Assembly: GCF_029227915.1 (NCBI RefSeq)
Contig: NC_079882.1
Span: 9,424,001 to 9,488,000 of the forward strand
Reading direction: 5' to 3'
DNA length: 64,000 bases
Source: Hydractinia symbiolongicarpus
Lineage: Eukaryota; Cnidaria; Hydrozoa; Anthoathecata; Hydractiniidae
In this document: one piece after another, positions 21,601-57,208 of the stretch
Position numbering within the stretch: the first letter of the stretch is position 1
Layout: every line of letters begins with the position of its first letter
The notes under the pieces: model-generated
The model's input: the letters and a program-made list of their open reading frames with translations, nothing else
The model's database searches: none
What the model was told of the DNA's origin: nothing
Translations under genes and position numbers: made by a program

Positions 21601-24600
21601 GATATGTTTAGTATTGCTGCTTTTTGTAATTCTTAATAAAGTCAGAGTTGACAGTAATTTCATAGAGTCAATTTTGACAAGATTTGAGGACTTTTTATGA
21701 GAATTTATCAGCTTTTTTGAGAAGATGATGGTTGAGGACATTTGAGGAAATTTTTTGCAGAAATTAAAAATACTTTTTCAACTTAATTTCATAAATAAAA
21801 ACTAACTTTTTGCTGTACCCATGTAGCATTTCCATTTTCGTTACCATATATAATTTTTTTAAAACTAAAATTTAGGAGATTTGATGACTTTTGAGGAGAC
21901 ATTTCAAAATTAAGGAAAACTGGGGACATTTAACGAGGAGTGGCAACTCTGTAAAAGAGGTGGTCAAATATAATTGAAATGCTGAAAATATAAATGATAG
22001 AAAATAAATATATCGAAAATTTTTCAAATAAGCTCATCTAAATATTTCAATTACGTTTTCCATCAAAAACCACAAGCCACAAGAAAAAACCAACTTTTTC
22101 TTGACCTTAAAGCTTGGATTATACTAGATGCATGCTTTTAACAGCTAGTCAAAAATGAAAGAAATTCTGCTGCAAGTCACCATTAAAACATCACTAATAA
22201 AGAAGAAATAACACAAGAGTTTAGAGCAATAAATTAAATTAAGCAAATGCTTAACTACCTAAAGGCTAGCTCGACTTTAATTTCCGGAAGATTCTCATTC
22301 AGAGCTTCCAATCCTAATTGATATTGGTGTTCCAAAGCTTTGTAGAGTTGATGATCCAAATGCAGTATCCACGGTTTCATATTGCCATGTTTGAAACCCT
22401 GAAAAAATGACATTTTATGTCTTATCTATATACACAGCTAAAGAAATCACATTTTGCCTTGACACCTGGTGAAACAATAGAAGAACACAATATTCGTGGG
22501 CATGTGTTTTAATTTTTATATTTTTTAGTAAAAAGTAACACATCAGTGAAAAAAACGTGATAACAGTATATAAATATTACAATTCAATCACTGAGGAAGC
22601 CATTGTCTTTGGGATTGTTTCCAGCATTCCTTCAACCAAATTTAGCAATGTTGATATTCCAAGGGTAAATAAAAATAAGAAAAAGGTAAAGAATATACAT
22701 GCTATTACCTGCTCGTTTAAATTACTGATTAGTTGTCTCATCTCAATTAAAATATCCTTCCATTTTGGTTGATGTCTTAAAAGATCAATTCCCATTAGTT
22801 GAACAGCCTGAAACGATTTGATAATCATACAAGAAGGGCAACATGCTGTTAATGAAAAAATAATGGGAAGCTTTAATATTACCTTATCTATCATAATTGT
22901 ATGACATTTTCTCAGTCTCCTATTATCAGTGGTCAACTTCTCTGCAACAGTTTGTAATTTCTTGATGTATATCTCAACTTCTTGGGGATTGTCCCATGTC
23001 ACATGAGTTCTCCCTCCTTTTTCTTTTGATCCAGACTTTGGGTTTTTAACCAACTTCTCAAATGCTAAAGCAGTATCCAACATCATAGCTTGTTGACAGT
23101 CAACCATTTGTTGATCAATTGTGTTATAGAAGTGAGCTACCTAAACCCAAACAATATTAAACATCGACCTGCAATTAATTCACTGTGATAATTACAACTT
23201 GAATAATGTAAATAAAAATACACACTTGTTTTAACACAACTGCTTGTCTGTAAAATTTCATTGCATTAGTAGCCGTATTTTGTATTTTTGCTGGAACAGC
23301 ATAACCCATTCCTTGTAACTGTCGAACTTCTCGGATAAGCTTGACAAGTCGTTCATCATACTGAACCTCCAGCTTGCCATCACTATGACCAAGTTCCATC
23401 AACTTTCCTGCAGTCTTCAATCTAAAAATAGTTCAAGAAAAAATTATACCTTTTTTTGAAAAAGGTACCAAGAAAGAAAAATAGAAGTGAAAAATACCCC
23501 AATGGTTGCTCAGTATCGTCGATACTCTCAATAGTATCCTTAACCCAGCTCTCATAATTTTCTTTCATATATGCAGTCACTTCCTCAATGAATGCAGAGC
23601 AAAATTTTTTGAACTTTTCGAATGAGCTTGTATCTCCAAGAAGATTTTCGGCTGACTTTAAAAGCTCTTTAACCTAAAACAATAACTGACTCTTAAATGT
23701 TCATAGACTTAGAAAATTCCATGTTTTTGTTAATAAAAACTCAAGTTATTTTTACCTTAGCTTGAAGCTGCCTTGCCCAAACAACATGGTTTATCATATC
23801 TGACATGTTCAATCCTTTTGGTGGGCCTTCACCTTTAGCATACGTAGACTTTGCATGAAAATCTGCTTTCAAGTTTTTTACATGTTCTTGCAATTGTCCA
23901 AGCAAAGTTTCCCTATTATAAAAATCTTGTTTAGCACAAATACAAAACGTCTAGGAGGAAGTAAGTAAATATAATTTACAATATGCCTGTAACAACCAAG
24001 CATGCTCTTCTTCGTGATTTTTTACAAATTTCAATTCCCAATTCTATCTTATTAATAAAGTGTGCTTTTCATTAACAGTTAACACAGAAGTCTTGGAAAC
24101 TAAGTTACATAACAAGCATTTAGAAAAGAAACTTTTATACTACTTTATCACAAGAAGGAAACCATTTCAGTATGGTAAATATAAGAAAGATGTATGCAGA
24201 TTAAAATAACATTAAAAAATATGAAAAATCTCCAGCATCTTGCAGGTGGTGTCTGGAAACTTCTTAAGATTTCTACTAAATCAATGCCTGAAGCATCACA
24301 AATTATTTAGAGAAAAAACGTCATGACCATGATTGTAAACGCATCCATTTTCAGAAACAGTTTGGTACATGGGTAGGAAACAGTAAGTGTTCTACAAAGT
24401 TTGGACCAGAAAGATGACTGATTAAATATGTTTTTAATGCACACAATTTTGCACAAACTATTAATACAGAAATACACAGTACATATGTACCTTTCAGCTG
24501 TAAGAGCTTTCTTGATGTTTGGACGATTAATCAACTCCTTATAACGTTGAAATTCCCGTAGCAGCTAAAAAATTTGAATCATCATTACTCATAACAGTTA

Positions 24601-26780
24601 CTTGTTAAAAATTATGCCATTGAACGAAAAACAAAACAAACAGAAAACAAAAAAAGCTACCTGGAATGATTTGGCCTTAGTATTGTTAAATTTTTCTCTT
24701 AGCTTGGTAGCAATTCTATCCTCAATTGGTTCAATACTTTTGCTGTATTGTGCAACAGCCGCATTCCATAGAGGTACTGTAAAAGGATTGTATTGCACAG
24801 GATTAAGACCAGCAAAAGGCTGAAATGCTTGCTCGCTATTAAGAAACTGACGTTCTGATGATGAAAGCAATTTGCTATGTTGTTCATGAATGATTCTAAT
24901 TCGAAGAATCTAGAAGAGGAATTTACAAACCGTTAATGGAAACAACAAAAAACCACGTAATAAATCATTGATATTCTGATCATATTATTTATATACTGCC
25001 CATTGGAATTATGCCCTTGATTAAGGATGCAAACACTCAAAGAATAACATATTTATGAGGTCAGGAATAAGTTGCTTTTATACTAAATTAATTTGTTTTA
25101 AAATGTAATAACCCATTCCCACTATTATGTAGAGCCTGACCAAGAAAATATATTGGATTACAAGCTTTTGATGATTACAGAAAGTTTAAATGTTTTCTGA
25201 TGATTTCTTTAAGGAGTTGGTTTGAACACAGGTGGCTTGTCTCAGCTTTAGGTAACTGGTCCAATTTTGATCCCAGATGGTCATCAGTTACCCACGCAAG
25301 AAAAAATGGCCTCAAAGTTATAACTGCAATATGCAATTGCTTTAAGATTGTTAATAAATTTTTGACATCAAATAAAACAGCAGTAATACAATGATTTTGT
25401 GAATTGCAGAAAATCGCAGAACCAGTTAAGTATTTCACACAGGTTTACTGTATCAATATAACAGATTTTACCTCTTCTAGTCTGCTACATAATTTCATTA
25501 GATTGATAGGAACGTATTTATCTCCCTTCCAAGCATGACCATGATACGTTTTCCAAAATCGCTCAGTTAATGTCTCACACACATTGTTCCATTTTTCGCA
25601 AATTTGTATACCAAATTGAAGGTTTTCTTTCACCACACTAAACTTCTCTTTCCATAATTCAATTGTAGAAATTTTCTTTTGGATATGTCTTCCTATACTA
25701 CCTCCGAATATATCAAACAAATGAGTCATTCGCTGCTGGGGATATTCTTTATGATCATCTTGCTTCCAAAGTTCATCAAAATTATCCATTGAAATATCCA
25801 CAACTTCCAATGTCTCCATTAAGTCAAGTGGATCCAAGTTAACAAAATCCTTAGCAAAATTGGCTAAAATATTAATTCATTCAAATTACATATTTTTTTT
25901 AATTAAATGAAGCTTAGTTACAAATTTGAAGTTATTAGGTTCAAGAGATTCCTATTCAACCACCTATATTGAACATAAAGTATACAAATTTCTATCTAAC
26001 AACTCTGTGGCTATAAAATTTCAAAATATTAAGTCCATAACAACCAGCTTATGATTGTGCTTTAAAAAGCAAGAAAAACCCTGTCTTAAGGGTACACCTT
26101 TACTTTATCAAAACTTTAGGAAATTTACAATTCTACTGCAAGGCTTTATGCAGGCACACTTCCGGTCAGCTAAAGAATTACTTACATCTTTCAAAAATTT
26201 CTTTAAAGGATGCTGCTCTTTCATTGCCATTATTTGCTTGATCGGTCCAATACTGAATTTCATCAGCAGGTGTCAAAATAGATATAAGATTTTCATTACC
26301 AGATTTCTGTTTGGAGTCCAAAAGATCTCCAGTCTTTCGTAAGTAACTTCCCAAACCCGATTCTAACTCACTTAACAAGTTCTGAACTTTAGGATCAATG
26401 CTTTTATTTGAAACATCACTATTTAATATCAATGGTCCAAAGATCTTTTTAATAGCATGATAGAGTGTGCTGATGGGCGAATTAAACATTGACGAAACCA
26501 GCACATTGTTATGAATATTGTCTGCTGTTACAACCTCTGGTTTTATTTTAAAAAATACAATACATTGTTCATCTGGGCTGTTAGATTGAAGCTCGTTATA
26601 TAATTGAATATTCTTTTCACTTTGACATATACTCACAAGTACCAAGATATTACCATCATCAAGGAAACCATTAATTTCTCTTACTTTATACAAACTCTGA
26701 ATACTACTGTCACTTGGTAAAATACCAAAGTAGTTGGCAACAGTAGAGAGGATAAAGTCTTTTCTTTTGTCAGTAGACAT
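664..26780 (-). CDS. DYNC2H1: Cytoplasmic dynein 2 heavy chain 1 (retrograde IFT motor), complete, 74 exons
   Basis: Motor subunit of dynein-2, which carries intraflagellar transport trains from the ciliary tip back to the base. Sequence: hand-joined exons give 12,873 nt and 4,290 aa, close to human (about 4,300 aa); all 73 junctions keep phase and no internal stop was found. The N-terminus has the dynein-2 motifs FLDDGN and [14 protein letters not shown], not those of dynein-1 or axonemal chains. Walker A motifs: AAA1 GPAGTGKT (about 1678), AAA2 GPSGSGKS (1973), AAA3 GPEGCGKE (2284) and AAA4 GRSGVGRR (2643); the last has R for the catalytic K, as I recall for human. The C-terminus ends [19 protein letters not shown], diagnostic of DYNC2H1. 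Start is the ATG at 26778-26780, stop TGA at 664-666. The last intron (823-2923) contains a whole channel gene. Exon coordinates follow in the next nine entries. Confidence 0.96.
1117..2592 (-). CDS. DEG/ENaC family cation channel subunit (HyNaC/ASIC-like), nested in the last DYNC2H1 intron
   Basis: A 491-aa, uninterrupted reading frame with the full DEG/ENaC layout: cytoplasmic HG gating motif (HGIPRI, residues 52-57), TM1 (about 66-86), post-TM1 motif FPSVTIC (110-116), a large cysteine-rich extracellular domain, pre-TM2 segment [14 protein letters not shown], selectivity-filter-like GAS (458-460), and TM2 (about 459-480) with a short basic tail. Length fits the family. These channels form trimers, conduct Na+ (sometimes Ca2+), and in cnidarians many are gated by RFamide neuropeptides; that ligand here is only inferred. 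The gene has no introns, unlike its host, and lies wholly in intron 73 of DYNC2H1 on the same strand. The first ATG was chosen; in-frame ATGs follow 9 and 15 nt downstream. Confidence 0.93.
   Translation of the reverse strand: MQQMGMASSRAKKMTRLDSVELNRIDSQSLDGEIKTVSLNSVEKNVDSLTIHGIPRIITSNSKVEKLFWLSLFLFCFCYCAYSAMRALKAHYSRDTFLHVSTKTVHEMPFPSVTICNKIKHNAKEKLLPGITVDMDTETVFSKGFVRNESSNRLGKLNFVNFDEFSIGYDKIIRNVPRACRFGYKTDCSLSYFSLTYDIPGCITFNARGNLKQIFPGSQHGVKLIVYVNHTSTQEEEVDFLDDNNDISIVVHDPKVFPNLWSKSFSVETGLHNKVAITKKRVSLKRAPFASQCVNQVDRPELKVFPGRYTTQNCLSSCSIYHCYDACGDVPDSFQRYFTYKSFPRKMKKNLTCVNHHEKTFFRKARELCDCPLSCEEVIYDTTISVSKWPTNNYKNKLRKYFKKDTSHSSSEDFFSNNFLLLSVYFEDFLYKKEVEKEKYSFDNLMGDLGGQAGLYMGASIFSVIELLMIFVLMVVTKLASFVKSFLVYRK
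3790..4085 (-). mobile_element. tRNA-derived SINE, diverged copy in DYNC2H1 intron 70
   Basis: On the minus strand it starts with a tRNA-like head. A B-box-like motif (plus strand GGTTTGAAC, about 4017-4025) lies inside it, and it ends in a TAA-rich tail near 3790. It aligns over most of its length to the better-preserved copy at 45750-46013. It occupies most of the 383-bp intron 3763-4145 and does not touch either exon. Confidence 0.6.
5704..5876. repeat. Imperfect (GAAT/TGAA)n microsatellite
   Basis: A run of about 170 bp of TGAA/GAAT-type tetranucleotides inside DYNC2H1 intron 63 (5701-5889). It produces a spurious H/S/F-rich reading frame continuing from exon 63 on the minus strand. Confidence 0.85.
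8040..9889 (-). other. DYNC2H1: DYNC2H1 exons 47-55: AAA5 and start of AAA6 (about residues 3174-3548)
   Basis: Exons: 9638-9889, 9451-9549, 9239-9362, 9079-9136, 8898-9003, 8661-8780, 8440-8574, 8207-8350, 8040-8126. Conserved blocks are [38 protein letters not shown], and LTTRNPNP with [10 protein letters not shown]. No P-loop is expected or seen in AAA5. Exon 50 is only 58 nt. Confidence 0.9.
10025..11588 (-). other. DYNC2H1: DYNC2H1 exons 41-46: stalk coiled coil and microtubule-binding domain (about residues 2883-3173)
   Basis: Exons: 11451-11588, 10808-11082, 10604-10727, 10404-10525, 10239-10325, 10025-10151. Exons 41-42 encode the heptad-rich outgoing helix. The [20 protein letters not shown] and SWVSMRRFLAKRG blocks with exons 43-44 form the globular microtubule-binding tip, and exons 44-46 the returning helix ([20 protein letters not shown]). 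Confidence 0.92.
11671..13304 (-). other. DYNC2H1: DYNC2H1 exons 37-40: AAA4 (about residues 2473-2882)
   Basis: Exons: 12902-13304, 12437-12669, 11994-12360, 11671-11897. The P-loop reads GRSGVGRRT, with arginine where other AAA modules have the catalytic lysine; I recall the same substitution in human DYNC2H1, so it is a family trait and not damage. Walker B-like [20 protein letters not shown] is in exon 39. Confidence 0.92.
13409..14566 (-). other. DYNC2H1: DYNC2H1 exons 32-36: AAA3 (about residues 2205-2472)
   Basis: Exons: 14468-14566, 14189-14349, 13863-14109, 13633-13784, 13409-13553. Walker A GPEGCGKE spans the exon 33/34 junction (final codon split 2+1). Walker B-like [17 protein letters not shown] is in exon 34. 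AAA3 is the regulatory nucleotide site in dyneins. Confidence 0.92.
14648..15617 (-). other. DYNC2H1: DYNC2H1 exons 29-31: AAA2 (about residues 1953-2204)
   Basis: Exons: 15441-15617, 15072-15367, 14648-14930. Walker A GPSGSGKS in exon 29; Walker B-like [18 protein letters not shown] and [20 protein letters not shown] in exon 30. In dyneins AAA2 binds nucleotide structurally. Confidence 0.93.
15706..17064 (-). other. DYNC2H1: DYNC2H1 exons 24-28: AAA1, the main ATPase site (about residues 1627-1952)
   Basis: Exons: 16826-17064, 16534-16716, 16208-16431, 16005-16126, 15706-15914. Walker [10 protein letters not shown] is in exon 24 and Walker [13 protein letters not shown] in exon 25, with [14 protein letters not shown] in exon 26. 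All catalytic signatures of the primary ATP-hydrolysing module are intact. Confidence 0.94.
17208..20306 (-). other. DYNC2H1: DYNC2H1 exons 14-23: linker region (about residues 1028-1627)
   Basis: Exons: 20104-20306, 19773-19928, 19572-19683, 19289-19459, 18992-19150, 18688-18911, 18482-18614, 18142-18372, 17576-17689, 17208-17502. This is the linker (DHC_N2-type) that swings across the AAA ring during the power stroke. Strong matches are [20 protein letters not shown] and [20 protein letters not shown], hallmark linker motifs of dynein heavy chains. Confidence 0.92.
20388..26780 (-). other. DYNC2H1: DYNC2H1 exons 1-13: N-terminal tail (about residues 1-1027)
   Basis: Exons: 26186-26780, 25472-25863, 24661-24909, 24491-24564, 23756-23912, 23498-23673, 23226-23421, 22883-23140, 22709-22807, 22259-22398, 20937-21287, 20614-20857, 20388-20537. 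The tail dimerises the heavy chains and binds intermediate and light intermediate chains. Conserved family stretches include [17 protein letters not shown] (exon 3) and [20 protein letters not shown] (exon 11). The introns here are the gene's largest (21288-22258, 23913-24490, 24910-25471), and the one at 24910-25471 carries an old dispersed repeat. Confidence 0.9.
25225..25345. repeat. Dispersed repeat, copy in DYNC2H1 intron 2
   Basis: Shares the blocks GATCCCAGATGGTC / CAGTTACCCAC / GGCCTCAAAGTT, in the same order and spacing, with 61262-61375 (GGTCCCAGGTGGTCC / CAGTTACCCAC / GGCCTCAAAGTT). Both are diverged copies of one interspersed family of unknown class. Confidence 0.55.
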
Positions 26781-27770
26781 GCTACATTATGCTACTTTCC
26801 ATCTAAATAGAATGTATTTACATTTTAATTCCATAGAGGATTATAGTCCTGGTAGCACCTACAGCATATACATAAGCTGTTAGCATGTTGCTAGCATGTT
26901 GTGTAAAACTATGAACCCAATAAAAAAATCTATTTAAAAACAGAAACTAGGAGCATACTGAGACTAAGTGTATAATATTCAAAATTTAATTAAGGAAATT
27001 TTCCAATACAAACACCTGTGCTAAAAAAAATTCAGAAAATGACATCGTCATTACCTTAGACAGTCATATAGTTCAAATCTTACATCATTTGGTGCCTTAC
27101 ACAGTGTACTCCATACCACTAGAATTAAATAATTCTCATACGATAATTGAAAACCAACAGCAAGTATAAAAATAACTAACATTGTAAGTCTACAAGGGTT
27201 CAATGGTGTTCGTTTAACTTAAATCTGGTTTCAATGCCCTTGATACTGTTTTAAAAGTTTGGCTTATACTTGGGTTTTTTATAAACATCGTACTTTATTG
27301 TTTTAAGAGATGTTGTTATAGAATTTTAACATTTCAAGCCTTAAATAATTCTTAGGGTATTTTTTTAAAAAAATCAACTAATTATTTAAAATTGCTAAAA
27401 AATTCTACATGTTAAACATGGTTGACCAATTGAGGTAATGGCTAATAAAAAAACAAGAAAAAATTTTGATATCACATAATCAACTATGGCACTCAAATGT
27501 AGTAAAATTCAATTTAATGGAACATTCAGGGCTTTCCCCAAAACAGTATTCTTTCAAAGAAATTATGCAAAGGTAATTCATTTTGTGTTTTCTTTAAATT
27601 GTCTGTTTTCTGCCTTTGGTATAGCTGGCCACCTTAAACAGTTAGTAATTGTACTAAAGAATGCATGAGGGGGATCATTAGCATACGTAGGAGGGGTGGT
27701 CCTGATAACATGTGTCACTTATATTAAATAAATTTAGAAAATATATACTGTTCCCTTATGACTTTCTGAA
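26781..27770. other. 5' flank of DYNC2H1, no gene seen
   Basis: AT-rich sequence upstream of the DYNC2H1 start. It presumably contains the promoter and any non-coding first exon, but I see no TATA box or other site I could defend. Confidence 0.5.
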
Positions 27771-28025
27771 GTTGGACACTACGGCATTGACGTTGTGCAG
27801 AGTTTTTGCTACTTAGGTTACATAATCAGTCAGCGTGATGGCTGTTTCAATGCTAATATGGCAAGAAAAACGACTTTTAAAGTTACTGGAAGTGTGCTAT
27901 ACGTGGAAGACCAAGAAACCAATGGAAATTGATTACTTCAAGCATACATGCTGACCTAAATGGATGTAAAACATTCAATTTGGTAAGGTTTAATCTGCAT
28001 ATTACTTTAGCTGATTCGAATTGAC
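27771..28025 (+). mobile_element. Decayed non-LTR retrotransposon (LINE) reverse-transcriptase tail
   Basis: The plus strand encodes SFCYLGYIISQRDGCFNANM, resembling the F-C-Y-L-G block near the end of LINE reverse transcriptases. After a frame change it encodes RGRPRNQW followed by a DL...NL pattern, the usual RGRPRxxW C-terminal block. The 40 or more residues normally between these blocks are missing, so it is an internally deleted fossil. Confidence 0.5.
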
Positions 28026-28759
28026 AAAAAAATCTTCATCAGGAACATTGCATAGCCCAATGATCAGAGGAAACATCTCAACACCCCTGCAGTGACGTAT
28101 CCAGTGTTTTTTTGGGACTACTGTTTTCTTATATCCAAATTTTACTTAGGTTAGTATCTTTGTGAGGCACCACTATGGTTGGTGCAGAAGGGGAAATTTT
28201 GGGTTTTGAGGTCCCTAGATTGCTCTGCGGCACTCAAAACAGCAAAATTTTGTACAATTATTACTTGAATTTTATTACATAATTTTATATATTTTTTGTT
28301 TTTAGTCTTTGTTGCTTATAAATACCTGTAAAACTTTCTTCACAAAATTAATACTTACAATATAAATACATAGGCGACACGAAGTCTATTCCTTGTAGAT
28401 TTATTTGAGAACCTGTTCAAAGTCATATTCCATATTTTTCTTCACTGTTTTACAGTAGTGATGGCTTATTAAACTCGCGAAGGGAAAAAAGAAAACTTGC
28501 ACATGTGTCATAACCTGTAACAGGTTCAGCAAACTTGCGAAGGATGAGAGAAAATTTGGATGCGTTTTGAAAAGGTTTTTGAGGCCTTAAAATGGTGGTC
28601 AATATAAAGGGTTTCTGCTAAATTTGCCAAACTTGTTTACAGGACTTTTCTCCCTTGTTTAACTGTGAAGGAAAGGGGACGTAAATGTCACGAAAGAAGC
28701 CCTAAAAACGAAGATGCAAAATTTTTATTTGACCAATTTTGAACATCGTGCACTAAATA

Positions 28760-29488
28760 CAGTACTGTGAAAAAGTTTATGAACATCGTGGTTCGTGTTT
28801 ATTTCATGTTACACACGAACCACGATAGCCCACAATGCGTATTTTTTTAACAATCATAGACATCACAATCATGTTTCGTGGGCTACACGAACAAAAAATC
28901 AAACATTACGCCGTGGTGTCCACGATAGATAACTTCTATTGTAAAACAACAAAGACAGTATTAGCTTATCAATTAAATCAAAAACCGATGGCAAAAAAAT
29001 AAATTACCACTTATAAATTATCGCTTATAAAGTTTTAAAATGCGATCTAAAAAAACATTTTTATCGCCGCTTTTCGTTTTTAAACTTTTAAAATGCGATC
29101 TTAAAAAGCATTTCTATTGGCGCAGACAAATTTAACTTTTCTAGACAAATGACATTTTCTTAAAATACAATCGCGTCCATGACGAAAAAGTATACACCAA
29201 GCCAAAACTACGAATATACTTTTTTATCTTGGTAAAACCTGAAACAAACAAATTAACTTTAATGAAAGACTTTTTTGAAAAGAAAAAAAATTCAATTATA
29301 CTGGCTATAAAAATCGTGGAGCTCGCGGAAATAATCGTGGGACACACGATCCTTCGTGGAGATAATAATATTAGAGTGGTGGCCACGATAGAATGTTTGT
29401 TATGCATAAAGACCACAATTTTATCGTGGTTCGTGTGCACCACGCTCGTTACACGAACACGATGTAAACAAACCTTTTCACAGTACTG
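28760..29488. mobile_element. TA-flanked non-autonomous TIR element (MITE-like), 729 bp
   Basis: Both ends carry CAGTACTGTGAAAA followed by an A or G and GTTT, in inverted orientation, immediately flanked by TA (28758-28759 and 29489-29490). Inside are several inverted motifs built on CACGA/TCGTG, and two copies of a roughly 51-bp unit (29030-29125) that is the reverse complement of the minisatellite unit at 51911-52371. No transposase is encoded. TA duplication suggests a Tc1/mariner or pogo-type source. Confidence 0.75.
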
Positions 29489-30768
29489 TAGAAAATAAAA
29501 ATCACAAATAGAAAATGGAACAATCACATTTTCATTTTACCACACTAATGAAGGCTTAAAACTGCTTTGATAAGGAATATCTATGTTCTCTATAGTTGTT
29601 TATAAGTACTTTGTAAGTACTATCATCTAACTTATCAGGACCAACTAGAGCAATGCAGAGAATTCAATAGAGCAATTTCACAGAAAGTCTGGAATTTTAC
29701 AGCAAGAAATAGCTTTCCTTTCATTGTTTTCTTTTTGCACTCTACCTCCTTGGACCATTCTTTTGTATAAAATTGTGATTACCTACCAGGTCCCATGGCT
29801 GTATTGATTTCGACAGGAAACCGTTCACTAGCCTACATTCACAGACGTAACGTTGGGTGAAGCTATCGTTCACTTGACTTATTATTAAATGGCCGAGTGA
29901 GTAAAGATGGTGGTAGGCTGGTTGTTTTAAAAACATTTAAATGTTACGAATGTTATCACATGTACGTCAAATCCAAGCAGTTTAATCATTTTGAAGGATC
30001 GCAAATTTGCTGACGAAAAACATACTACTTAGAGCTTATATTTGCTTAATTTACTAGTTTTTTTTTTGCATTATTTATTTTTTTGGGATAAGGATTTGGG
30101 ATCCAATACCGGTAAACTGGTAGCAAAACCTCTCTGGATACATCAGTGCCCTGGATCACTTGTTTGTAAGTTAAATCCCAGACTCTTTAGGTGATAACTC
30201 CCCAACAAAATGTGGTTAGACATGCTTATGCACAAATTAAACTTATAAACAGTATCCACAAAAGCTTATGCTCTATTCGATTTTCCATAGATGCATTCAA
30301 ACTTTTCCGCGATGAGTGGTTTGGCTCTAGCATTTGCGTAGTCGGAAAAAAGATGCTATGATTTGGTGAAGAGAGGTCTTTTCCTGTGAATATCTTTTCA
30401 CAGAAACATTTTTGAGGTTATAAACTATCATCAAGTGTATATTGATGCCTTCTGATTTATTTCAATTTATTTAAAGTCTTAAGAATGGCTTCATGTGATG
30501 AAATGGACAGATAATAATTACTTTGCTTCACTTCACTTTTTTCCTGTCACACAAATGCCAAAACACAAAGAGCTTTATTGCTTTCCAATTTACTGTGGTA
30601 CACACCTTTGAATTAGGAAATAATCTACTGAATAAATTGTTGTATTTAAGTTTACCGATGTGTATAAATGACCACTCTGAGTGCAGTGAGCTTGTACGAA
30701 GGCAAAAAAGACGTTATTCATTTTAGCCTTTATCAATTTTAGGACGTTCTCAATGGATGCTTAAAGCA
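29489..30768. other. Non-coding stretch, nothing recognised
   Basis: No frame with protein-like composition, RNA gene or clear repeat structure was found. Confidence 0.5.
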
Positions 30769-30892
30769 GGGAGAACAGGTTAAAACCCTTGCTTTAAGAA
30801 AATGAAAGCTAGATATAGCTAGCTTAACTAGGGAGAACAGGTTAAAACCCTTGCTTTAAGAAAATGAAAGCTAGATATAGCTAGCTAAACTA
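30769..30892. repeat. 62-bp tandem duplication
   Basis: Two head-to-tail copies (30769-30830, 30831-30892) beginning GGGAGAACAGGTTAAAACCC and ending in GATATAGCTAGCT; only a few bases differ near the end. The near identity suggests a recent duplication. Confidence 0.9.
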
Positions 30893-30922
30893 GATAAGTA
30901 TGAAAAAATGGGGTTGTGGAAG

Positions 30923-30952
30923 CCCCCTCTAGCCCCCCCTCCCCCCCCTCCC
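30923..30952 (-). other. G-run tract, candidate G-quadruplex
   Basis: The minus strand has four G-runs of 3, 8, 7 and 5 separated by A, A and CTAGA. This stands out in an AT-rich intergenic region. Folding is inferred from the motif only. Confidence 0.5.
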
Positions 30953-32174
30953 AGTTCTTTATATAAATATTCTTTTCTATTTTCAAAAACGGCCAAATTT
31001 TTCCAAGCATATTTTCTGGAAACTTTATCTATGACTTAAAACTGTGTTTGTGCATACTACAAACTACAAAATAATTCAAAAAACAGAAAGAAACCCGAGC
31101 TACACAAGTCCAACTCACTGAAAATTCGAACGATGCTTCGCTACGATTTATCTGCGCTGTTTGTTTGGATTTGGTAGCGTACTTTACCAAGTTGACTTTC
31201 ATCCACAACATCAAAAAGTTTGTTTACAACTCATACAAAAAATGTAATTTATTACTTTGATATCCAATTTATATGTAAGATGTATATTAACAAATGCGAT
31301 ACCTATTATCAATTCTAAACTTGAACTGTTACAGTATAACTAGCATTGCCACAACGTAAAATTTAAAAAATCTTGTTTGCTGAGCGAGCTTGGTTTCTTC
31401 TAAATACACGGAAGACTGAGAGGAATCCTCCCCCCGCGAATAAATAAATGCCCCTAAAAAGAAAGTAAACTCCACCGCCTGCATAATTCGTTTAACCTCA
31501 AAACTAGAAATGTGATTCGGCACATCAACTTTCATTCCAGTGCGTTTAACGTCTTTCCGGTGATCAATGCCAAGAAAAACACTCAAGGCGTCACGCATAT
31601 TTACGGGACGAATTTATTTGTGTGCATGCGCTGAATCACGCTCGTGAAAACTAAACTTTTTAAAAATGGTAACCATAGCTACGCCGAGCAAGGGAAAGAC
31701 AATAGATTGCAACGCTTCGTTGATTTTAAGTTTTTAAATAGTTTATAGTACGCGCGGTTTTCTACATTGAGAATTTTTCTGAAGAGGAAGGAGCGATGTA
31801 GCCGGAGGAATAAGTAAGTTATAAAAAAGTTTATTGTTTTCTCCAGTATTTGACGTGGGACTTCGTCCCCTTCCAAAACATTAAAATTGGTAGTGGGTGT
31901 AGTAAAATTGTAATATCTTTTTAACTAAAGTTTTCTGTAGGAAAGACTCTTAGATTTAGCTTATCAACACCATCCTGATGGTAAGTTTAGTAAATTAAAA
32001 ACCATTTCACTTTTTTTTGTGGTGTTTTTATTATCACAAAGTCGAAGGAAAAAGGCACCTTCCACACCACGGTGAGTCAGCCTAGCTATTCAATGAACAT
32101 CCAATAAAAATATTTACATTATATATACATGATATACACATTGTGAAGGGATGCTCTATAAACATCAGCTAGAG
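30953..32174. other. Intergenic region downstream of the RAG1-like gene
   Basis: Composition rises in GC around 31400-31640, where an 89-codon minus-strand frame exists, but it matches nothing I know. The RAG1-like mRNA probably ends in this stretch. Confidence 0.4.
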
Positions 32175-35100
32175 CTAGCTAGTAGAGAGTTTTCTCTTTT
32201 TTATTTCAGGAACCATCCCTTGTCCTACGGGGTTACATCGCAAATAATGCTCCTTTGTCATTAAAAGTAGACGATTTGTGTCCGGTTTTACTGCATGGTA
32301 TAGCCGTGCAATGCCATTGAATTCAGCATGGATGCTTTCTGCACCTTGTTCTCCATAGAACCCTAAACCTGTACCCCAAGCAGAAACAAAGTTTACGGCA
32401 TGATCCTCAAGTAGATGTAACTTTGGAGTGATCGATTGAAGGGGAAATATATCTCGAAGAAACACCATCAGTTCTTTTACATTTAGTTCTAAAACAAATG
32501 TTTACATGTTATGGCTTTTATATATGTGTGTAATTTGTGCAAAAATGTGACCAATTATTAGTGTTTATATAATATACCTACCAAAGTTTTCAATTTTGTC
32601 TTGGTTCATAACTTCACGTGTATTTAATGTTTTGTGACATTTCGAATAATGTAAAAACAGCTGTTTAAAGTTTTCAGCATGTAAAATAGCATCTGCATGT
32701 ATGTCTGATCCATTGTATCCAAGTTTAGTGACAGTGATTGGAAGTATATTGCACATTTGGATAAAGTTGTTAGGCTAAATATCAAATGTTGTTGATTACA
32801 GTTTCTGTTAATGCACTTTTTTAATAATAAGCAAATATTATTAATTACTATTCAAGCCCTAGTTCGTTAATGGTAAGTTGCTTATTAAAAAATATATAAT
32901 ATAGAACATTATTTTTTCACCTCAAGCATTTTATTTACATGATTTCCAATAAAGCTACCACCATAATAAGCTTGGCGTTTAATGTTGAGCTTGTTGAGGA
33001 TAGCATCAACTGCTTGCACACAAGGACCATCAGTTTTTTTAAAATTGTTTGCTTCTTTTAACTCCTCAATACGGTTGGTCTAAAATATTGAATTAAATTG
33101 AGAATATTTTTTTGCATTTGTTTTGAAAAAATTTGTCTTCAAATTTAATATTTATACCTTTTCAATCTTTTTTGCTTCAAAGTGTTCAATTCTTAGTTGG
33201 TACATGTTTTTAATTTTATCCTCATTGTTTGGGTCTCGCATTACAGCTGCAATGATGGTGTCATTAATCAATTGGATCTTTTCATCACAGTCTTCAATAT
33301 TTTTTTCTAACAAGTCTATTTCTGATGTTAAAGCAATAAACTTGTTAAATTCCTCTTCTTGGGTTTTCTGATTAGCGTTTGCCATCTTGGTTGCTAACGC
33401 GATGTCCACACTGTGGCATTTATCTTCAAACATTGTAAAAAATTTTAAAAAACATCCCAAGGAAATGTGTAGTCCAGGTAAAGATGCCTAAAATTGAGTA
33501 ATAAAACTTGACTGATTAAATATTACTTTATTATCACTAATATATATAACTATGACTAAAATGTATTTTAAAACAATAGTTTTGGAGGCAACAGTGATCA
33601 AAAATATACATACAGTATAGTATAGCATGAATTTTACTTACCTGGTCAATTGGAATGTTAAAAAGTGGGTCATCAATTACATTGTAGTTGAATTTTGCAT
33701 TCTTCAAATTGCCACCAGAGTCTCTAAATTTTGCTAAATTCTCCTTCAAAGTTTCCAGGGTTCTTACAGGAAATTTTCCACGCATATCCACAGGTTTCTG
33801 TATTTCTTCTTTTGTTGCTATGCAATACAAACATGGGTGTCTCCCTGAATATTTTAAATGAAAATAAAATAAAATGTGATTTTTTATTTTGACTAATACA
33901 TTTTATATTTTGTACTTTTTTTATATTTTGTACTATTTTTACATACCGTTAGCTCCGGTTATGCCATATGCACTGCTTAAAAATTCGTAATCACCCGAAA
34001 GAAATACTCTTACTCTCTGGTCACTAAATGTAGAATATAGGTATAAATTTTAAACATAGAAGTGTTAACTCTAACAAAAATGTGATAAATACCAACCCAA
34101 ATTTGCTGGACTGTAGTCTATCAATTTGTTCTGTAAATCGACTTGTCCCAATTTTCAAATTTGATCTTCTATCCTTGGCCTCAAAGATACTGAAGACCAC
34201 AGTGTTTGACTATAAAAATCATAGGAAAATAATGTTTTTTTTCTAAAAGGTAGTAAAAGTTATCTAGGACTTTCTTTTACCTTGCTGTTTGGATTCTTTG
34301 TGTTACATATTTGAAATGAAAGCTTGAATGAACCACCGCCATGATCTCCTCCTATTTTTACATGTATTTCATTATTCATGAAGGGGTAATCAGTTAATAG
34401 TCCATTCCTAAATAGAAGTAGAATTGCATCTGTCTTAAATTTTTATTTTTATTTATTTTTTAAGTTTTTTTTAACTATATGTATCTTTTTCCTAAGAGTA
34501 AGTAAACACAAAAACCTACTGTCTTAGACAGTGAAACATTGTTTTGACTTGGGATTCCAGGCTTTCAACATAAACCCATGCTGCACTTCTTATTTCAAAT
34601 TTGCCTTTGTGCCCTTTAACTTCGAATGAGAATGGAGCTAGTTCTGAACGCAATTGATCACCAGTCCATTCCGTAGCCACTTTTCTTTGTTTTCTCTGTG
34701 ATGGTATGGATATGTTAAAGGTTGATAACCATCTATATGCAGAATATTATTATTTTTTTAAATGTGCATACTATATACCTTAGGAAAATAAAGTTTGCAG
34801 TTTTCTTTTTTGGTAAGAATTTAATTTGACAGATGCTAAATAAAATAAATTTGATGAGCACTAATCCACCAACACTGCTGACACACTTTCTTTCCTTAAG
34901 GTATTAATTTTGCATAAATGCTATTATGATAAATATATAAACAGGTAGATGTATAACACCTTTTTCATAAGAATCATACTTTTCATTTGAGTCTCATGAT
35001 TTTAAAAGTCTTATTTAAAAAGGTGTAACATGTCTATTCTGTCTTTTTTGTGAATTTTCATATATATAATTATTTATGTATTAGTACTCAATTTTCAGCC

Positions 35101-36491
35101 ATACCTTGACATTGTTTTTAATTTTGACCAGGGAATACTCAAGTCTGCCTTCATTGCTACAAATTCCTCTGGAGTTATACTCTTTGTTGTTATATTGGCT
35201 CTCTTGAGTATTTCTACTCTCTCATTTTCCTTCAGACTCTTGACTAATTTGCCAGTTTGTACGCTGAACCCACTTTCATTTCCACCAGAAGAAAAAAGTA
35301 ATTGGTTTTTTAAAAACTTGTTCCTTTTTTCTATGGTCCGCTTGCAAACTTCATTACTATTTTTAACCGGTTTCGGTGTTGAGGTGAACATGTAGGGCTA
35401 AAATAAATTTGTTTGAAATCATTAGTTTAATTTTATTTAATTTTTAAAATATCAAGGATATATATGTATATATATATAATGTAAAAAAATTTGGATATGT
35501 AAATCAGTTATTTTTGTAAATATATGCATTTTCCATTAACTGAGATACATACCCTAGGTCCTCCACTTTTAAATTCTATGCTGTTATTTATATCAGTTGA
35601 TTGTTTCATTTTATGTTTTAAAACATGCAAGGTGGCATCCTCTATTTCTCTTGGAACAGGAGATGACTCGTCCAATAAAAATACATCTCTTATTGAATAA
35701 TTTGCACTTGTATTTGAACTTGTGGATGTGTTGCACGATATATTGTGTAATTTAAGCTCATGTAATTTATCCAATGTAAATTTCTCTCCACATTTGTTAT
35801 CACAGTCAACTTGTAAACTATTTACCATGTGGTTTCGGTGCAAACTTGGTTTTAAATTTGATTGGTTGACAAGAGTGATGATGTCATCGCGTTTGCACTT
35901 AGGGCATTCACTTTCATCTTGAAAACTTCCTTCAAGATATATAAGGATGCATTCTTTACAAAATGCATGTTCACATGTGATAACCATTAAAGGTTGTCTC
36001 AGAAGATTTCCACAAAGCATGCACAAACAAAACTTGTAATGTGGATTTTTTTCTAAGCCATGGTGACTGACAACGGGTGGAATAATGTCATTTAAATTTT
36101 TGTCACTAATTTCCTCTAAGGCTTTTCTTGACCATATCGGCTTAAAAGTACTTGGTCGTCCTGTTTTCTTCTTTTTTGATGGCCTGCCTCCTTTTTTCAT
36201 ACCTTGAACATTTTCACATACAGAGCAAACTTCTGTATGGGGAGACCAATTTTTAGGTTTCAACTGTGTTGTTGTATTCCTATTTTCAATATTTTTAAGT
36301 GTGTTGTAACACCGAAAGCAAACATATTTGGGATGAATGTTGTCCACATCCTCCTGGATATGAACAAAAAGTAGTTCTAATTCCTTCTCCAATGTCATTT
36401 TCTGTTTTGCAATACCTTTACTTTTAGTTAAAAATTCTCCACAAACTCTACAAAGTTTTGCCAACATGTTTTCATGGTTTGTGGCGGCCAT
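32175..36491 (-). CDS. RAG1-like protein: RAG1-type N-terminal zinc region and RING, divergent RNase H-like core
   Basis: Exons: 35553-36491, 35105-35397, 34520-34732, 34281-34407, 34097-34209, 33947-34023, 33642-33844, 33158-33487, 32921-33079, 32582-32774, 32175-32488; all junctions in phase, 986 aa (vertebrate RAG1 about 1,040). N-terminus: CRVC (14-17), IHPKYVCFRC (52-61), WSPHTEVCSVC (82-92), two GRP basic motifs (102-113), C3HC4 RING (C157, C160, C173, H175, C178, C181, C196, C199), then a C2H2-like finger (C230, C234, H244, H249). This order is that of RAG1. Core: GGDHGGG (D503), SGDYEF (D573), CLYC (592-595), PGLHISLG (659-666), a charged helical insert in exon 8, then HLLEDH (907-912) and GEQGAES (928-934). 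The last two parallel the RAG1 HxxxxH zinc pair and catalytic-glutamate region. Function as a recombinase or E3 ligase is inferred. Start at ATGGCC; an ATG 30 nt upstream (36521) is possible. Confidence 0.8.
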
Positions 36492-36521
36492 ATTTTTTTC
36501 AAAAAGTAGGGTCTGTTTCAA

Positions 36522-38014
36522 GTCTTTAAATTTTTAGGAAAAAAGTGAAATGCATTCCAAACATAGTTTTTTGAAGAGCTTAAGGTCTGAACTAAATGCT
36601 GTAAAAACCTCTTTGGTAAAAAAACTTTGGTTGTCGAGATATTTAATGATGTAGCTAGGTCATTTTTTGTGTTTACTTTCGTTTTGTTTTTTTACCGCGT
36701 AACTTCAAAACAAAAGCAAGTAAGATGTTTTTTTCGCTTAGTTACGTAACCTGGCCTCACTTCCTTCAATTAAAATAGTACATTTCCTTAGTTTGTTGTT
36801 TAAATCGCCGTAAAAAGCATCAATTTTGGGATAGGCAATCTGACCAAGAATCGGGCTTTCGCCTCTGAGGCGCTATATTTAAAAAACAATTTTTCGCGCA
36901 TGCGCATAATTAAATTCGCTATTTGCGTACCGCTAGAACTAGCGTGGCGTTCGAAAGATCCTCCGACCGAGGTGATTATCGTACATTCTCGTAAAAATAT
37001 TTTTTGAGAAAACTGTCGTTTAACAACATCGATCCCAGGGCTCTTTTCTCTCATTTTGATATAAGACTTCAAGCTATAGAAAATTTAATACCGTCATTAG
37101 GAAAATACTGACATCAGTTAACCAAGCTTACAAGAGGCGAGCGAAACAGCGGTAAGGTGTCGTATAAAAACGAGCCTCCACATCTACTCTTTTTTATAGG
37201 CAGGCGCGCATTACGTTTTTAGAAGAAAAACAAAAGTGATGTGTTAAACACATTTTTGCTTGCTATAACAACTCAACATATTTACATTGGTCATATAAAT
37301 TATTTGTTTCATTTTGAAATTCTGGCAGTAAAGCAGTGGACGTGATCCAGATCACATCCACTGAACTGAAACCAGATAAATTTATAAATGTATAAAAATA
37401 TATATAAATATAAGGACATAAATATTTGGAAATAACACGAAGTACAAACCTAGATAGAAAATTGTTCAAGAAAAACCACATGACTGAGAAAAAAAATCTC
37501 CTAAAAAAATTTCGCCATAGATTTTCTTCATAAAATTTAGAAACACCAGTACTATATAAAACGATATAATAATTAAAATTTAAATTAATAACGTATAAAA
37601 ATTCAAAAAACAAAAAATTTAAATAATAATTTAACATTTATACTACAAACAGGATCAAATTGAATTTACGTACTTTCGAAAATCTTTTTCGTCTTTTTTT
37701 TTAGAACTAAAATAAATAAAAATTGCATTTAAAAATAAATAAGAGTCAATATTTTCTATCAGAAAATGTTGTCACAGCAGAGAAATCTACAGCACAAGCG
37801 ATAAAATGGTACTAAATTTCTTCAAATTTAGCAGCTCATTTTCCCTCGCAGCAAGATTTTTAGGCCAATAAAATTGCACATTTATGCTCAAAATGGTTTT
37901 TAAACTGCGGTCATTCTCTTGTTCTTGTTTTTTAGCTTTGCGAAATAAATAAAAATTAGAAAACATAGACGAACAAAAAAGTGCAAGGAATCTTTCGGTA
38001 GGTACCGATGGGTA
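36522..38014. other. Intergenic region between the RAG1-like and boule-like genes
   Basis: No coding evidence. A small hairpin (arms CAGTGGACGTGAT / ATCACATCCACTG) sits at about 37331-37360. The promoter of the RAG1-like gene and the 3' end of the boule-like gene should be here. Confidence 0.5.
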
Positions 38015-39581
38015 CTATTTACATACCTGAAAAACAGGTACGGGATGATGGTGTATAAACTGAGGTAGTGATGGCATGTAAACACACGACGAATAATCCT
38101 GCAAGTAAGCCGTACGTCCTTGGTTTTGTGACGGAACATTGTACGGCAAGAAATTAAACTAAAATAAAAGATATCCACAATTAGCCAGATAGCGTCTAAA
38201 AAAACCCAATACTTTAAAGATTCAGAATACCTCTGGAGGACACATGGATGGTATTACGATCGGAGAGTAGTCTCCAGTAACTGGTAGCATCTCTTGTTCT
38301 TGAGGTGATTTGCTTGAAAAATGATCGGGAGATGCTGGTGGAGTTAATGGCTGATAGCATTGGTATTGCGCCACTTGATAATTCGAAGGAATTGGAATTG
38401 GTGCAGAGTTGGTGGTGTGCTGTCCAACCGGAACCACTATGGTTGCTTGCCCTAAAAACCATAGACTTTTGGTTACAATATCGAATAGGGTGCTTCAAGT
38501 ATGTACAAAAAAAAATAAAACAAACTTTTAGGTTGGCTGGGACTTAGATGTTCAAACTGGGATCCATGTCGTCGTATGGCTTTTCGCACGCGTAATTTTT
38601 TTCCATACATTCGGATGGCTTTCTTCTCGACCAGATGGTCGACATTTTCACTCGCATCAAAAGTGACAAAACCGTATCTACATAAAATAGATATAAATTA
38701 AAAACTTGGACGTATCCCTAAGAACTATATAAACCTGTTTAGCAAGAACAGTCACAAAATCAAGGGTATAATTACAAAAGGTCGAGTTTAGACAGCTTAG
38801 TGGTGTGTAGTCAAAATACCCATAACATCAGGAAAAAAACACATCAAAAGGATTCATTAAGGTTGATCAACGCTAACACGCGCCTAACAAATTGCCTCGA
38901 GCCTGAATATGAAAATAACTGTTAGGGTTATAAAAAGATCATGTATTACCCTTTACTTTCGGCAGTAATTCTGTCTGTAACAATGCGAACGTCTTTTACT
39001 TTACCATATTCAGAAAAAAAATCCTCAAGTTGCTTCTCTGTAGCCTAAAAAACGATGGATAAGAACAAAAGTAACTTGATGCCTACGTCTGAATATAAAT
39101 TCGACCTGTAATAGACGTCCTTCGCAAGTTACCTGAGGTGGTATCCCTCCAAGAAATATCTTATTTGGATTTTCTTGCTCTGCATCCGTAGAAATAATAC
39201 AAACAGGCGAAGGCCTGTTCTGCGTCTAAAAAACAAGTTTTGATTGGATTAGACGTATGGTAATGTTTACTCGTTCATACCATTGCATAGCTTCATACCG
39301 CATTGCAATTATGACGCGTTGGCCAGTATAATGAAGTTGTCACAGTAAAGTTGGATTTTAAATGACGCCATTCAACAAACAACTTATTAGCAACAAGTTT
39401 TCATTGCTTGATATTTTAAGAAATAAAACAACACCTTGGCGTCTTTGCAGTTTTTTTTGTCCTAAAACAAAGCTACTCCTTGTACGATGGTTACCTTACC
39501 GTTAATTGTTTGAAATAAAAAAAATCGAAGAAATGTTGTAGCGCTGTCCATTTTCAAACCTACCTTGCTTGGAGAAATCAT
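38015..39581 (-). CDS. boll: DAZ/Boule-type RNA-binding protein, one RRM
   Basis: Exons: 39564-39581, 39133-39225, 38950-39044, 38526-38677, 38231-38451, 38015-38158; phases agree and give about 240 aa (vertebrate BOLL about 283). RNP2 is KIFLGGI (28-34) and RNP1 is KGYGFVTF (68-75), followed by GKKLRVRKAIRR, the position of the DAZ-family KKL...AIRK block that closes the RRM. The remainder is rich in P, Q, S and Y (CYQPLTPPASP; YMPSLPQFIHHHPVPVFQ). Boule/DAZ proteins bind mRNA 3' UTRs and promote translation in germ cells. The very short first coding exon (6 codons) is like DAZ-family genes. The 3' end is uncertain: the stop TAG follows a strong donor CAG|GTATGT, so another exon may exist. 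Confidence 0.75.
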
Positions 39582-41004
39582 ATCAGCTAAATAAATGCTG
39601 TTGACGGAACGAACTTGTTGTTTTATAGCAAAGAAGTACGGACTCTTCGCATTCGTACTTTTATTTTATTACGTTTATTATACACCTCGTATTTATTATA
39701 AGCGTCTCACATGATTAACAAACCGAAATAAACACAACATTAACGAGGCTTTTAACGAGCACCGGAGTACACGGAGGAGTAGTTAGAACCCAGAATGCGT
39801 TCAAAAGATGAAGCTAGCTATTTCGAATGCAATTAAAAGTAAAAATAGCTTTGAAATCTTATATGCTAACAAAACTACGCGCGAAAAATGGTTATATATT
39901 GTCAAAGAGGAAAAAGAAATTAACTTTTATTTAAATGTTAGGGATGAACCGAACCGAAAAAGAATCTGATAATAAAATATGTCCGTCTGTTTCTATCAAA
40001 AAATAAGAAAAATACTGCATAAAAATAAATAGCTTATCAGCAGTATAAATAAATTTCTAAACAAAAAAATAAATTACAGAAAAGGTCTTTTACACATTGT
40101 GTGAATAATTTATTCGACCCCTGGTACACTGATGGCTCTGGTGGCGATGTTAGACTTCGTTTTCACTAAATGTGTTCGGGAGAGACAGAGAATCACATGA
40201 TAAAACTTAATTTAATGATGATTGTATCGGTAACTTAAATGTGTCCCTACTCTGTCTATTCTCCATAGCTGTGCATGATCTAATCAAACCGGGAAGTTTT
40301 ATTGCACAGTGGGAAGCTCCACAGTTGCAGGGCTTTTTGTTATTATAATTTTTTTTTTTTGACATTTCAAGCGTACACTGGTCGTGTCGTTGTGTAAACA
40401 ATTGATAGTGCAAAATTATTAATTTATCGCGCATTTATCCGCGCAAAAACTTATGTGCGCGAAATATTTCTTTTTCGAAGGTGCGCGAAAATGACATTGC
40501 CCAAACCTAAAGAAACAAGTAATACGATTTCGTTCATTTTTTTCTCCGAAAATATATTGTAAAGTTAAAGATTATCAAAATCACAATGCTTCAGTATTTG
40601 TTGTCATAGATCTACGATTGATAAAACTAATTAGTCATTAGTCATTCCTTAAATGATAGGGTTCAACGCTTTTATAAAATAATTATAAAAAACGTAGTTA
40701 TAGATGTCACTATCAAATTTATTACAACAATTTCCATAAAAAACAAATCGAATTTTTTGGGGATTGTATGACATATAAATGGAACTAACATATTTCTACG
40801 ATTTGATAATAATAATTTGTCGTAGCTGAAAACACGACTTTCTGCAGACAAAGACAGAACGGAAAACACATCGCCTATAAGCGTTTGAAAAATATGCTTA
40901 AAGCGATTTGCATGAAAGTTTCATATTTCAAATAAATACTAACATATGATTTCTGATTCATCCTAAACATAAGTTAGACCCAATCAAAGAGGCTGATTTC
41001 AATG
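39582..41004. other. Non-coding stretch upstream of the boule-like gene
   Basis: Contains the presumed promoter and 5' UTR of the boule-like gene. No other gene or repeat was recognised. Confidence 0.5.
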
Positions 41005-41863
41005 CAAGCAGCATTTTGCGCCCAGTCGTAAAAAGCGCCGCGACTTTTATCGCATATGCCAAAACCATTTCCATTCGGCTATATTTTGCTTACATATATT
41101 GCAAAACATGGCTGATGTAAGCAGAAGATATTCGTTGCTGTATAATTTGAGATTAGTCAATATTAATATGACGCAAATATTAACAACAATGCAAGATACG
41201 TAAAAAAACATTTGACATGGTTGCCATTACGCTCCTAAACTGATTCGTATACATATTGCTTTCATTCGATTTTGGGTAGAATTTCAAAACAAAACGAACA
41301 CGTAGTTGCTAGCTCCTTTGAAATGAAAATCTCAATAAAAATTCTTACGTATACTTTAATTCTTACGTATACTTTAAGTAAAGGTTTTGATTGGGAGTTA
41401 AGTTGAAATGTAGCTAAGTAGAGCCTGTTCAAATATTGAGAGGCTGTTTACATGGAACTTGATATTGGGGGCGAAATAAAACGAAACTCATGCTGGCATA
41501 AAATTACCTACATTTTACATAAGGTTCGTTTCAAGGGGGTCGTCGTTAAACGGTTGGGTGCGAAGAATACGTTTTCCACATGGCGTCAGAGGAGAAACAT
41601 GATTTTCAAATTTTATCAGGTATAGAAGTTTCCTCTCTTCAGTTTCCTCTCTTCAGTTTTATTAAGTTTGCCTGTGATTCAGACATCAATACTTCCCAAC
41701 TTCATTGCTACCCACCAAGGGCAACAACAAGATTTATGCTTGGAATGTAAATCAGTTAAATAAAGGAATCGCATATAAAAACGCGAGGTCAGCGAATTTT
41801 TTCTGATAATGAGCATGCGTAGATCAAATCACTTTTTAAGACTGGTCGCAAAATGCTGCTGTA
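41005..41863. mobile_element. Candidate inverted-repeat element, about 860 bp
   Basis: Arms 41007-41036 and 41831-41861 are inverted copies sharing GCAGCATTTTGCG, CCAGTC and TAAAAAG with few differences. No target duplication or coding content could be defined, so the class is unknown and the ends are approximate. Confidence 0.45.
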
Positions 41864-43386
41864 TAGAAACCGGACTAAAGGCTTGTTTTCATTGAGCCCT
41901 TTTATCGCTAGAGCGCAAAAAGCGCGGATTTATATTGCGCAACGCATGTGCAGTAAAAAGAAATTGCCGCTGACTCGGCGCAAATCAGTGCGATATAGCG
42001 CAAATCAAAAAGTTGGCTAATTCGACTTAATTAATCCAATCAGATTGCCGTCGCTTAAGCTTTTTGACCAATGTTTATCTTCATTCTTAGAAAAACTCAT
42101 TACTGAAAATAATTCAAAATAGCTGCCTTTTTTTAACACCTAAGAGTGCTTACATTCAGTATTCTAAATTTGCAGCATGTTTCTTTGTTTCCGGTAAAAA
42201 CCAAGAAGATATTTCGCAGCTAATGCGTAGCCGAAATCGCTATGCACAATTCGCAAAAAATAAATCAATAAAAACTCAACAACATTGCATTCGGAGTATG
42301 TGGTCTCTGAAGCATTATTCAGTCAAGCGTGACATTGAAAGCTAAAAAATGTCGAAGAAAGCGATAAGATGGAAAATCACCAATTCTGCGAAGAAAAATA
42401 AATTTGAAAAAATGCTTATTTGGTGAAAATTGGGAAAATCAATAAATCACAGAATTTTATTTTATTTATATGGGAGCGACGCGTTTATATGTTTAAAAGG
42501 ACTAGTTACGAGAAAAAAAATGTTGAGTTTTTTTTTATTTATTTACAAAATGGCTTTATTTAACAAAACACAGAAAGTTTTAACAGAATGTCTTCCAACT
42601 TTCATCACCTGCAAGGTTTTCAAGATTTTTTCCTCCAGGTGTTTTACAGTCATATTTGCGATAATCCAAGACTCCCCCGTTGCGAAAGACATAATATATT
42701 TATAAAATTTTTCTAGGAAATGCACCTCCTTACCAGAATGAAAATGTCAGAATATATACATAGCCAATTCCTACTAAAAATAATTAGTGTTAGAGATAAC
42801 ATACCAATAAAAATAAGCTGGTGCCTAGCAACTTTCTTTCGTGTTTATGTAAATAAGTTTTATATTTTGGATTAATGTTTTTACATGCATGTTAAAACGT
42901 GCCCAAACAACATTATGAAATATAAACATAGTATTATCTCCTGTTGGTTCTTGAAAGCTCTAATAATACATTTTAAGCTTTTTTTCCAAACAAATCCAAA
43001 GCTGAAAAAGCTCGGGCGAGAAGGAAGTTAAAAACATTTTTAAAGCCTTGGACATAAAACAAAAGTTATTATTAAAAGACAGAGGAGCAATATAAGATGC
43101 TATATAGCTTTCATTTAATGTTGTAGAATGAACCTTTTGGAGATTTTTTTATATTTACTTGCACTTAATGCTAGAAAATAAATCTTTTGTGGAAATGCAT
43201 TTTGCTTGTCTGTTGGCAATAAAAGTTTAGTAATATTATATAAAGCAACAAGATCTAAAAAATACACAAAAAAGCGTACGCTCATTTTTTCGCATAGTTC
43301 TCAATACAAACTTTATATTCACTTATCTTTTTATTATAAATTATATATATAAAAAAGTTAGAGTTATTTTAAAATTTTTATTAACT
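41864..43386. other. Non-coding stretch, nothing firm
   Basis: CpG- and GCGC-rich for about 120 bp at 41900-42010, otherwise AT-rich. A 60-codon minus-strand frame at 42543-42725 looks protein-like but matches no family I know. Confidence 0.35.
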
Positions 43387-56817: not shown

Positions 56818-57208
56818 TCTGACAAAGGAAATCACAAAAAAAACATTGCAAAATCTACCTGTTTTACAATGGAATGTCTTCTTTTTATTGCAACATTTTG
56901 TGACTTTAAAAAAAGCAGCGCAAGGTCTTCTTTTTTCAAAATTCCTCTTCAAGAGTTCGAGATAACGAGCGTAAATCAGTCCAAGGGACTGAGAAAAAAG
57001 TTCGAGATAGTGAAAGTTCGAGATAACGGAGGTTCGAGATACCGAACGTTTTTTTTGCCTACTATTGCTTACAGAACTCAAGGGACCGAAGAAAAAGTTC
57101 GAGATAGAGAAAGTTCGAGATAACGGAGGTTCGAGATAATGAGCGTCGACTGTAATTTTCTTTGGCGAATGTGCCTATGCTTTCTGTAATAGCTATTATG
57201 CTAAAACT

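Follow-up and report, generated by a model that had tools for sequence, protein, structure and literature searches.

The minus strand of the window (the whole 64-kb stretch of DNA that was analysed) carries, at 36491..32175, a gene in which RAG1-like zinc motifs precede a transposase-like region: is it a relative of the V(D)J recombinase, a mobile element or a gene of the host? The locus is very probably an intact, multi-exon gene for a DDE transposase of the Chapaev type (cut-and-paste DNA transposons of the CMC/Transib group). The gene adds a member to the Chapaev kind; the combination of Chapa domain, RING and catalytic core was itself published in 2015.

Eleven exons were rebuilt from the sequence, through predicted junctions. 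Once joined, they give 2961 nt, coding for 986 amino acids followed by a single terminal stop: all joins are in phase, reproducing the intact eleven-exon gene that the initial annotation had proposed. The ten introns range in length from 71 to 372 bases, and G+C content is 0.358 in exons versus 0.213 in introns. The junction search considered GT-AG sites exclusively. For intron 9 the second-ranked donor (TGAG/GTGAAA) was picked by eye, as was one of two equally ranked donors in each of introns 6 and 10; intron 5 begins at a weak donor, and choosing another pair of sites there gives a protein of 985 amino acids, likewise open. When the joined exons were shuffled, stops appeared in 1000 out of 1000 cases, with at least 48 stops per shuffle; exon frames had been picked from open stretches, so that openness within the exons is partly selected for, and independent support for the gene model comes from the in-phase joins and from the family matches. 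The exon chain and its motifs are confirmed as real, well above chance.

Exon 1 (36491-35553, residues 1-313) contains a RAG1-like, Chapa-type zinc region, a RING and a finger-like motif. Three motifs, with residues counted by hand, are found before the RING: C14xxC17, IHPKYVCFRC (with C58/C61) and WSPHTEVCSVC (with C89/C92). The whole protein matches the Pfam model RAG1_imp_bd (PF12560) with an E value of 2.5e-9 and 37.6 bits, the best stretch being residues 42-108 (36168..36368, minus strand); residues 1-152, searched alone, reach 1.9e-12 and 47.8 bits, the cut-off of the model being 23.3 bits. We infer that this model covers the Chapa domain. In PDB, residues 1-140 retrieve three RAG1 sequences (E of 1.8e-5, 5.4e-4 and 5.4e-4), the sole other match, at E up to 10, being a ribosomal protein (0.28). 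The alignment to the RAG1 N-terminus spans the motifs IHP..C..C and W.PHT..C..C, while the first C..C pair is aligned without significance.

The RING, of the C3HC4 type, lies at 35895..36023 on the minus strand (residues 157-199; Pfam zf-C3HC4_2, 1.1e-7), with C157-C160-C173-H175-C178-C181-C196-C199 as ligands. Taken alone, it scores higher to BMI-1, RING2 and BRCA1 than to RAG1. When the whole protein was searched by phmmer, the RAG1 chain 1rmd_A, spanning residues 153-247, was found with an E value of 0.00089, behind 23 sequences among the matches listed. The RAG1-specific signal sits, therefore, in the zinc region preceding the RING, and is reinforced by the order in which the motifs occur. 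The idea that a generic RING could be the only element in common was rejected, as both Pfam and PDB report RAG1-specific similarity upstream of it; the profile search suggested in the initial annotation thus found RAG1 similarity beyond the RING, and the RAG1-like architecture of the N-terminal zinc region was borne out. The list of zinc motifs also held, in composition and order, up to the last item: the finger following the RING, annotated as C2H2-like and located at the position of the RAG1 C2H2 finger (35733..35804, minus strand, residues 230-253), reads as C/C/H/C (C230/C234/H249/C253), and Pfam finger models do not match these residues. An AlphaFold prediction of the exon 1 product alone had a mean pLDDT of 36.4, unusable as a model.

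Ten exons, again on the minus strand, encode the rest of the protein. Within it, residues 379-558 match Pfam DUF1280 (PF06918) with an E value of 1.3e-16 and 61.3 bits (cut-off 25), which upholds the proposal of a transposase-type core. The match starts in exon 2 (35397-35105), includes exon 3 (34732-34520) and exon 4 (34407-34281), and stops in exon 5 (34209-34097). DUF1280 proteins are described as putative Chapaev transposases, placed in clade II together with RAG1, in the part of PMC3985635 that deals with them. The assignment to Chapaev is made through DUF1280 and through published descriptions, rather than by comparison with Chapaev proteins, and names no subgroup. The KDZ transposases, an idea derived from the C-terminal motifs, were set aside once DUF1280 was read as Chapaev.

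Candidate catalytic residues are distributed along the core. The proposed first catalytic aspartate is D503, within GGDHGGG in exon 4, and the proposed second is D573, in exon 6 (34023-33947). Exon 7 (33844-33642) contains C592xxC595, the proposed counterpart of RAG1 C727/C730. Exon 8 (33487-33158) codes for a further portion of the core, and exons 9 (33079-32921) and 10 (32774-32582) are taken from the joined reading. In exon 11 (32488-32175), which includes the stop, are found H907x4H912, putative zinc histidines, and E929/E933, either of which may be the catalytic glutamate. The resulting order (D573, C592xxC595, H907x4H912, E929/E933) is a likeness at the level of motifs only: the order D...CxxC...HxxxxH...E is common to Chapaev, Transib and RAG1, and the CxxC and H(3-4)H expected of Chapaev between the second D and the E are both present. 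The spacing of 19 residues between D573 and C592 is also found in mouse RAG1, between D708 and C727. When residues 314-986 were shuffled 20000 times, D-x18-CxxC was found in 186 shuffles, in 8 of them together with HxxxxH and E, and in none when a tryptophan was added; the pattern was written after inspection of the sequence, and these figures are descriptive.

If these assignments hold, the zinc region and the RING might serve in dimerisation or in ubiquitin attachment, as is reported of RAG1; D503, D573 and either E929 or E933 would form the active site of an RNase H-like core that cuts DNA at the CA..TG ends of the element itself and pastes it elsewhere.

In 2007 Kapitonov and Jurka reportedly described Chapaev transposases that carry both a Chapa domain and a RING. 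The Chapa domain, according to the relevant passages of Kapitonov and Koonin 2015 (PMC4411706), is named after Chapaev transposons of the lancelet and of the starlet sea anemone, and two Chapaev subgroups have a RING after it, an arrangement shared with RAG1; the same passages describe TransibSU as retaining a truncated RAG1 N-terminal part, corresponding to the Chapa domain, cite Repbase Reports of 2007 and 2008, and include Hydra and Nematostella among the species of a tree legend. From the comparison, the authors derive an ancient common ancestor that had the Chapa domain, the RING and the catalytic core. The fusion is not a novelty outside vertebrates, since Chapaev proteins with the N-terminal domain and the RING were already described in that paper. 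The gene shares with Chapaev the Chapa-type zinc region, followed by a RING and by a DUF1280 core, as well as animal hosts; unlike Chapaev, it has no recognised end repeats in the flanks scanned.

The N-RAG-TP elements of Aplysia (Panchin and Moroz 2008), to which the locus had initially been compared, are also RAG1 N-terminal-like sequences in an invertebrate mobile element (PMC8355894, PMC2996935, PMC13337447, in the sections concerned). The comparison is fair, but Chapaev matches better: N-RAG-TP, compared here by description, is presented in a passage of PMC8355894 as entirely RAG1 N-terminal-like sequence, unlike the gene reported here.

Could the gene instead belong to RAG1L or to Transib in the strict sense, as close kin of the V(D)J recombinase? 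The RAG1 N-terminal match and the core motif order in common speak for it. With RAG1 and RAG1L (ProtoRAG, TransibSU) the gene shares the N-terminal zinc region and the D-CxxC-HxxxxH-E order, and with RAG1 and some RAG1L the RING; with Transib it shares the motif order of the CMCT-group core, as outlined in part of PMC12730594. Transibs are described, in passages of PMC4411706 and PMC7204232, as devoid of the RAG1 N-terminal region, while this gene has one. The core itself points elsewhere: it matches DUF1280, and the Pfam RAG1 core model finds no match when the whole protein is searched. Searched against PDB to an E value of 10, the core has no match to chains of RAG1, of RAG1L 6b40 or of Transib 6pqn, though a search of the same type links RAG1L 6b40 to mouse RAG1 at 1.9e-48. 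With the 316-residue catalytic half of mouse RAG1, Transib 6pqn comes up at 0.0091 only, and single-sequence search is therefore weak at such a distance. When residues 486-986 of the core were aligned directly with that half of mouse RAG1, the scores stayed within shuffles: the local score is 50, versus 44.1 +/- 7.1 (93 of the 500 shuffles are as high), and the global score with free ends is 30, versus 21.7 +/- 8.3 (81 out of 500), the latter alignment leaving the C-terminal HxxxxH/E motifs unpaired. As neither alignment nor search is significant, the kinship of the core with RAG1 rests on published classifications and on motif order. A RAG2-like partner was not noticed among open reading frames of at least 120 amino acids, nor in ten stretches scanned with Pfam, where a split kelch gene could escape. 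A RAG1L or Transib gene proper was rejected on the grounds of the DUF1280 core, of the lack of Pfam and PDB matches to the RAG1 core and of the alignment scores, and is very improbable. Hardly any credit can be given to another explanation, by which exon 1, coding for a RING/zinc protein, was wrongly joined to an adjoining DUF1280 gene. Exon 1 is indeed a single block of 313 codons, the DUF1280 match begins only in exon 2 and the junction is predicted from sequence; but intron 1 is in phase, its donor and acceptor are the top-scoring ones among the candidates, and an identical domain order is reported for Chapaev in the passages of PMC4411706 mentioned above. The interpretation given in the initial annotation, which saw kin of the V(D)J recombinase in the locus, is partly supported: the RAG1-like N-terminus and the transposase core stand, but it was incomplete, the core being of the DUF1280/Chapaev type.

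Within the Chapaev explanation, the gene may be a transposon copy, either recent or not long immobilised, or a domesticated transposase, that is, a host gene under selection, with a DNA-binding, ubiquitin-ligase or cutting role and with its ends lost. The latter is a special case of the Chapaev explanation, and the confidences assigned to the two overlap. The initial annotation concluded from the intact frame that the locus is not a decayed transposon; such a frame is equally compatible with a transposon copy of recent date and with a host gene under selection. In favour of domestication are the ten introns without a stop, the absence of a second copy in the 64-kb window (tblastn, E up to 1) and the lack of end repeats above controls. 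For the ends, regions 26800-32174 and 36492-42000 were compared: no exact inverted repeat shared by the two flanks exceeds 14 bp, a length attained or surpassed in 92 of 164 pairs of control segments taken from the window (200 were drawn, and 36 dropped because they lay too close together). Among end pairs starting with CA (28000-32174 versus 36492-40000), the best has a score of 14, equalled by 16 out of 20 shuffles; scanning without the CA rule gives scores up to 17, made up of 12 matches and a 5-bp duplication, a figure that has no control. Between 30500 and 38500, among the 25 listed of 95 inverted pairs, I23 alone flanks the gene (22 nt, 77% identity, 31266-31287 and 37280-37301; again with no control). 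No terminal inverted repeat or target-site duplication above controls was thus seen in the flanks scanned, although the scans might overlook ends that are imperfect or lie farther out.

Outside the window, relatives were sought in collections that may omit the source genome. Two stretches of the viral contigs collection fit the search pattern, and neither is a relative; a DNA pattern for GEQGxESIH had one hit in the viral contigs (L001), with a best tblastn E value of 0.92 and phage-like open reading frames, indicating a chance match. Searches with exon 1 found eight stretches, none of them a relative, in the genome contigs collection, and nothing in the plasmid collection.

Every point listed for domestication is compatible, too, with a transposon copy that is recent or has decayed only mildly, and the full order of catalytic motifs gives no sign of an altered role. 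In our judgement a transposon copy is the likelier of the two, because of the DUF1280 gene counts in Hydra: the portion of PMC7642931 on this family gives 13, 31, 4, 0, 4, 3 and 2 genes for seven cnidarians, non-zero in six of them, the first two figures being those of H. viridissima and H. vulgaris. Domestication in general is an unlikely, though not negligible, alternative. Somewhat more doubtful still is its specific form, a fixed host gene derived from Chapaev, which would have kept the zinc region, the RING and the full set of catalytic motifs while its ends were gone, and would represent a RAG1-related capture independent of the V(D)J recombinase.

As a Chapaev-type transposase, the gene offers an intact example of a family with a RAG1-like front end, and helps in sorting out the ancient parts of the V(D)J recombinase. 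The accepted view is unaltered by this gene alone, because the ancestor of RAG1 had already been inferred in 2015 from the combination of Chapa, RING and core, as the corresponding passages of PMC4411706 state. The gene would carry greater weight if it proved to be single-copy and under selection.

Six of the ten stretches of the window scanned with Pfam gave matches (one to a sodium channel, three to dynein heavy chain and two to a transposase), which suggests an animal genome, perhaps that of a cnidarian; tRNA (bacterial code) and Rfam searches had no match across the window. An amiloride-sensitive sodium channel (Pfam ASC, 3e-69) is present at 1123-2580 on the minus strand, the matched stretch being intron-free and within a long open frame. 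Pieces of a dynein heavy chain, which we take to be of the cytoplasmic dynein-2 type, extend on the same strand from about 11950 to 25876 (AAA_8, 5.3e-26; DYN_lid, 8.2e-22; DHC_N1, 1.8e-6, just under the cut-off). A short open frame at 38476-38697, minus strand, without Pfam matches at E up to 0.01, presumably resembles an RNA-binding motif of the boule/DAZ kind. At 54592-57174, again on the minus strand, a Tc5/pogo-like transposase is found, with DDE_1 (6.1e-27) in one frame and both HTH_Tnp_Tc5 and CENP-B_N in another.
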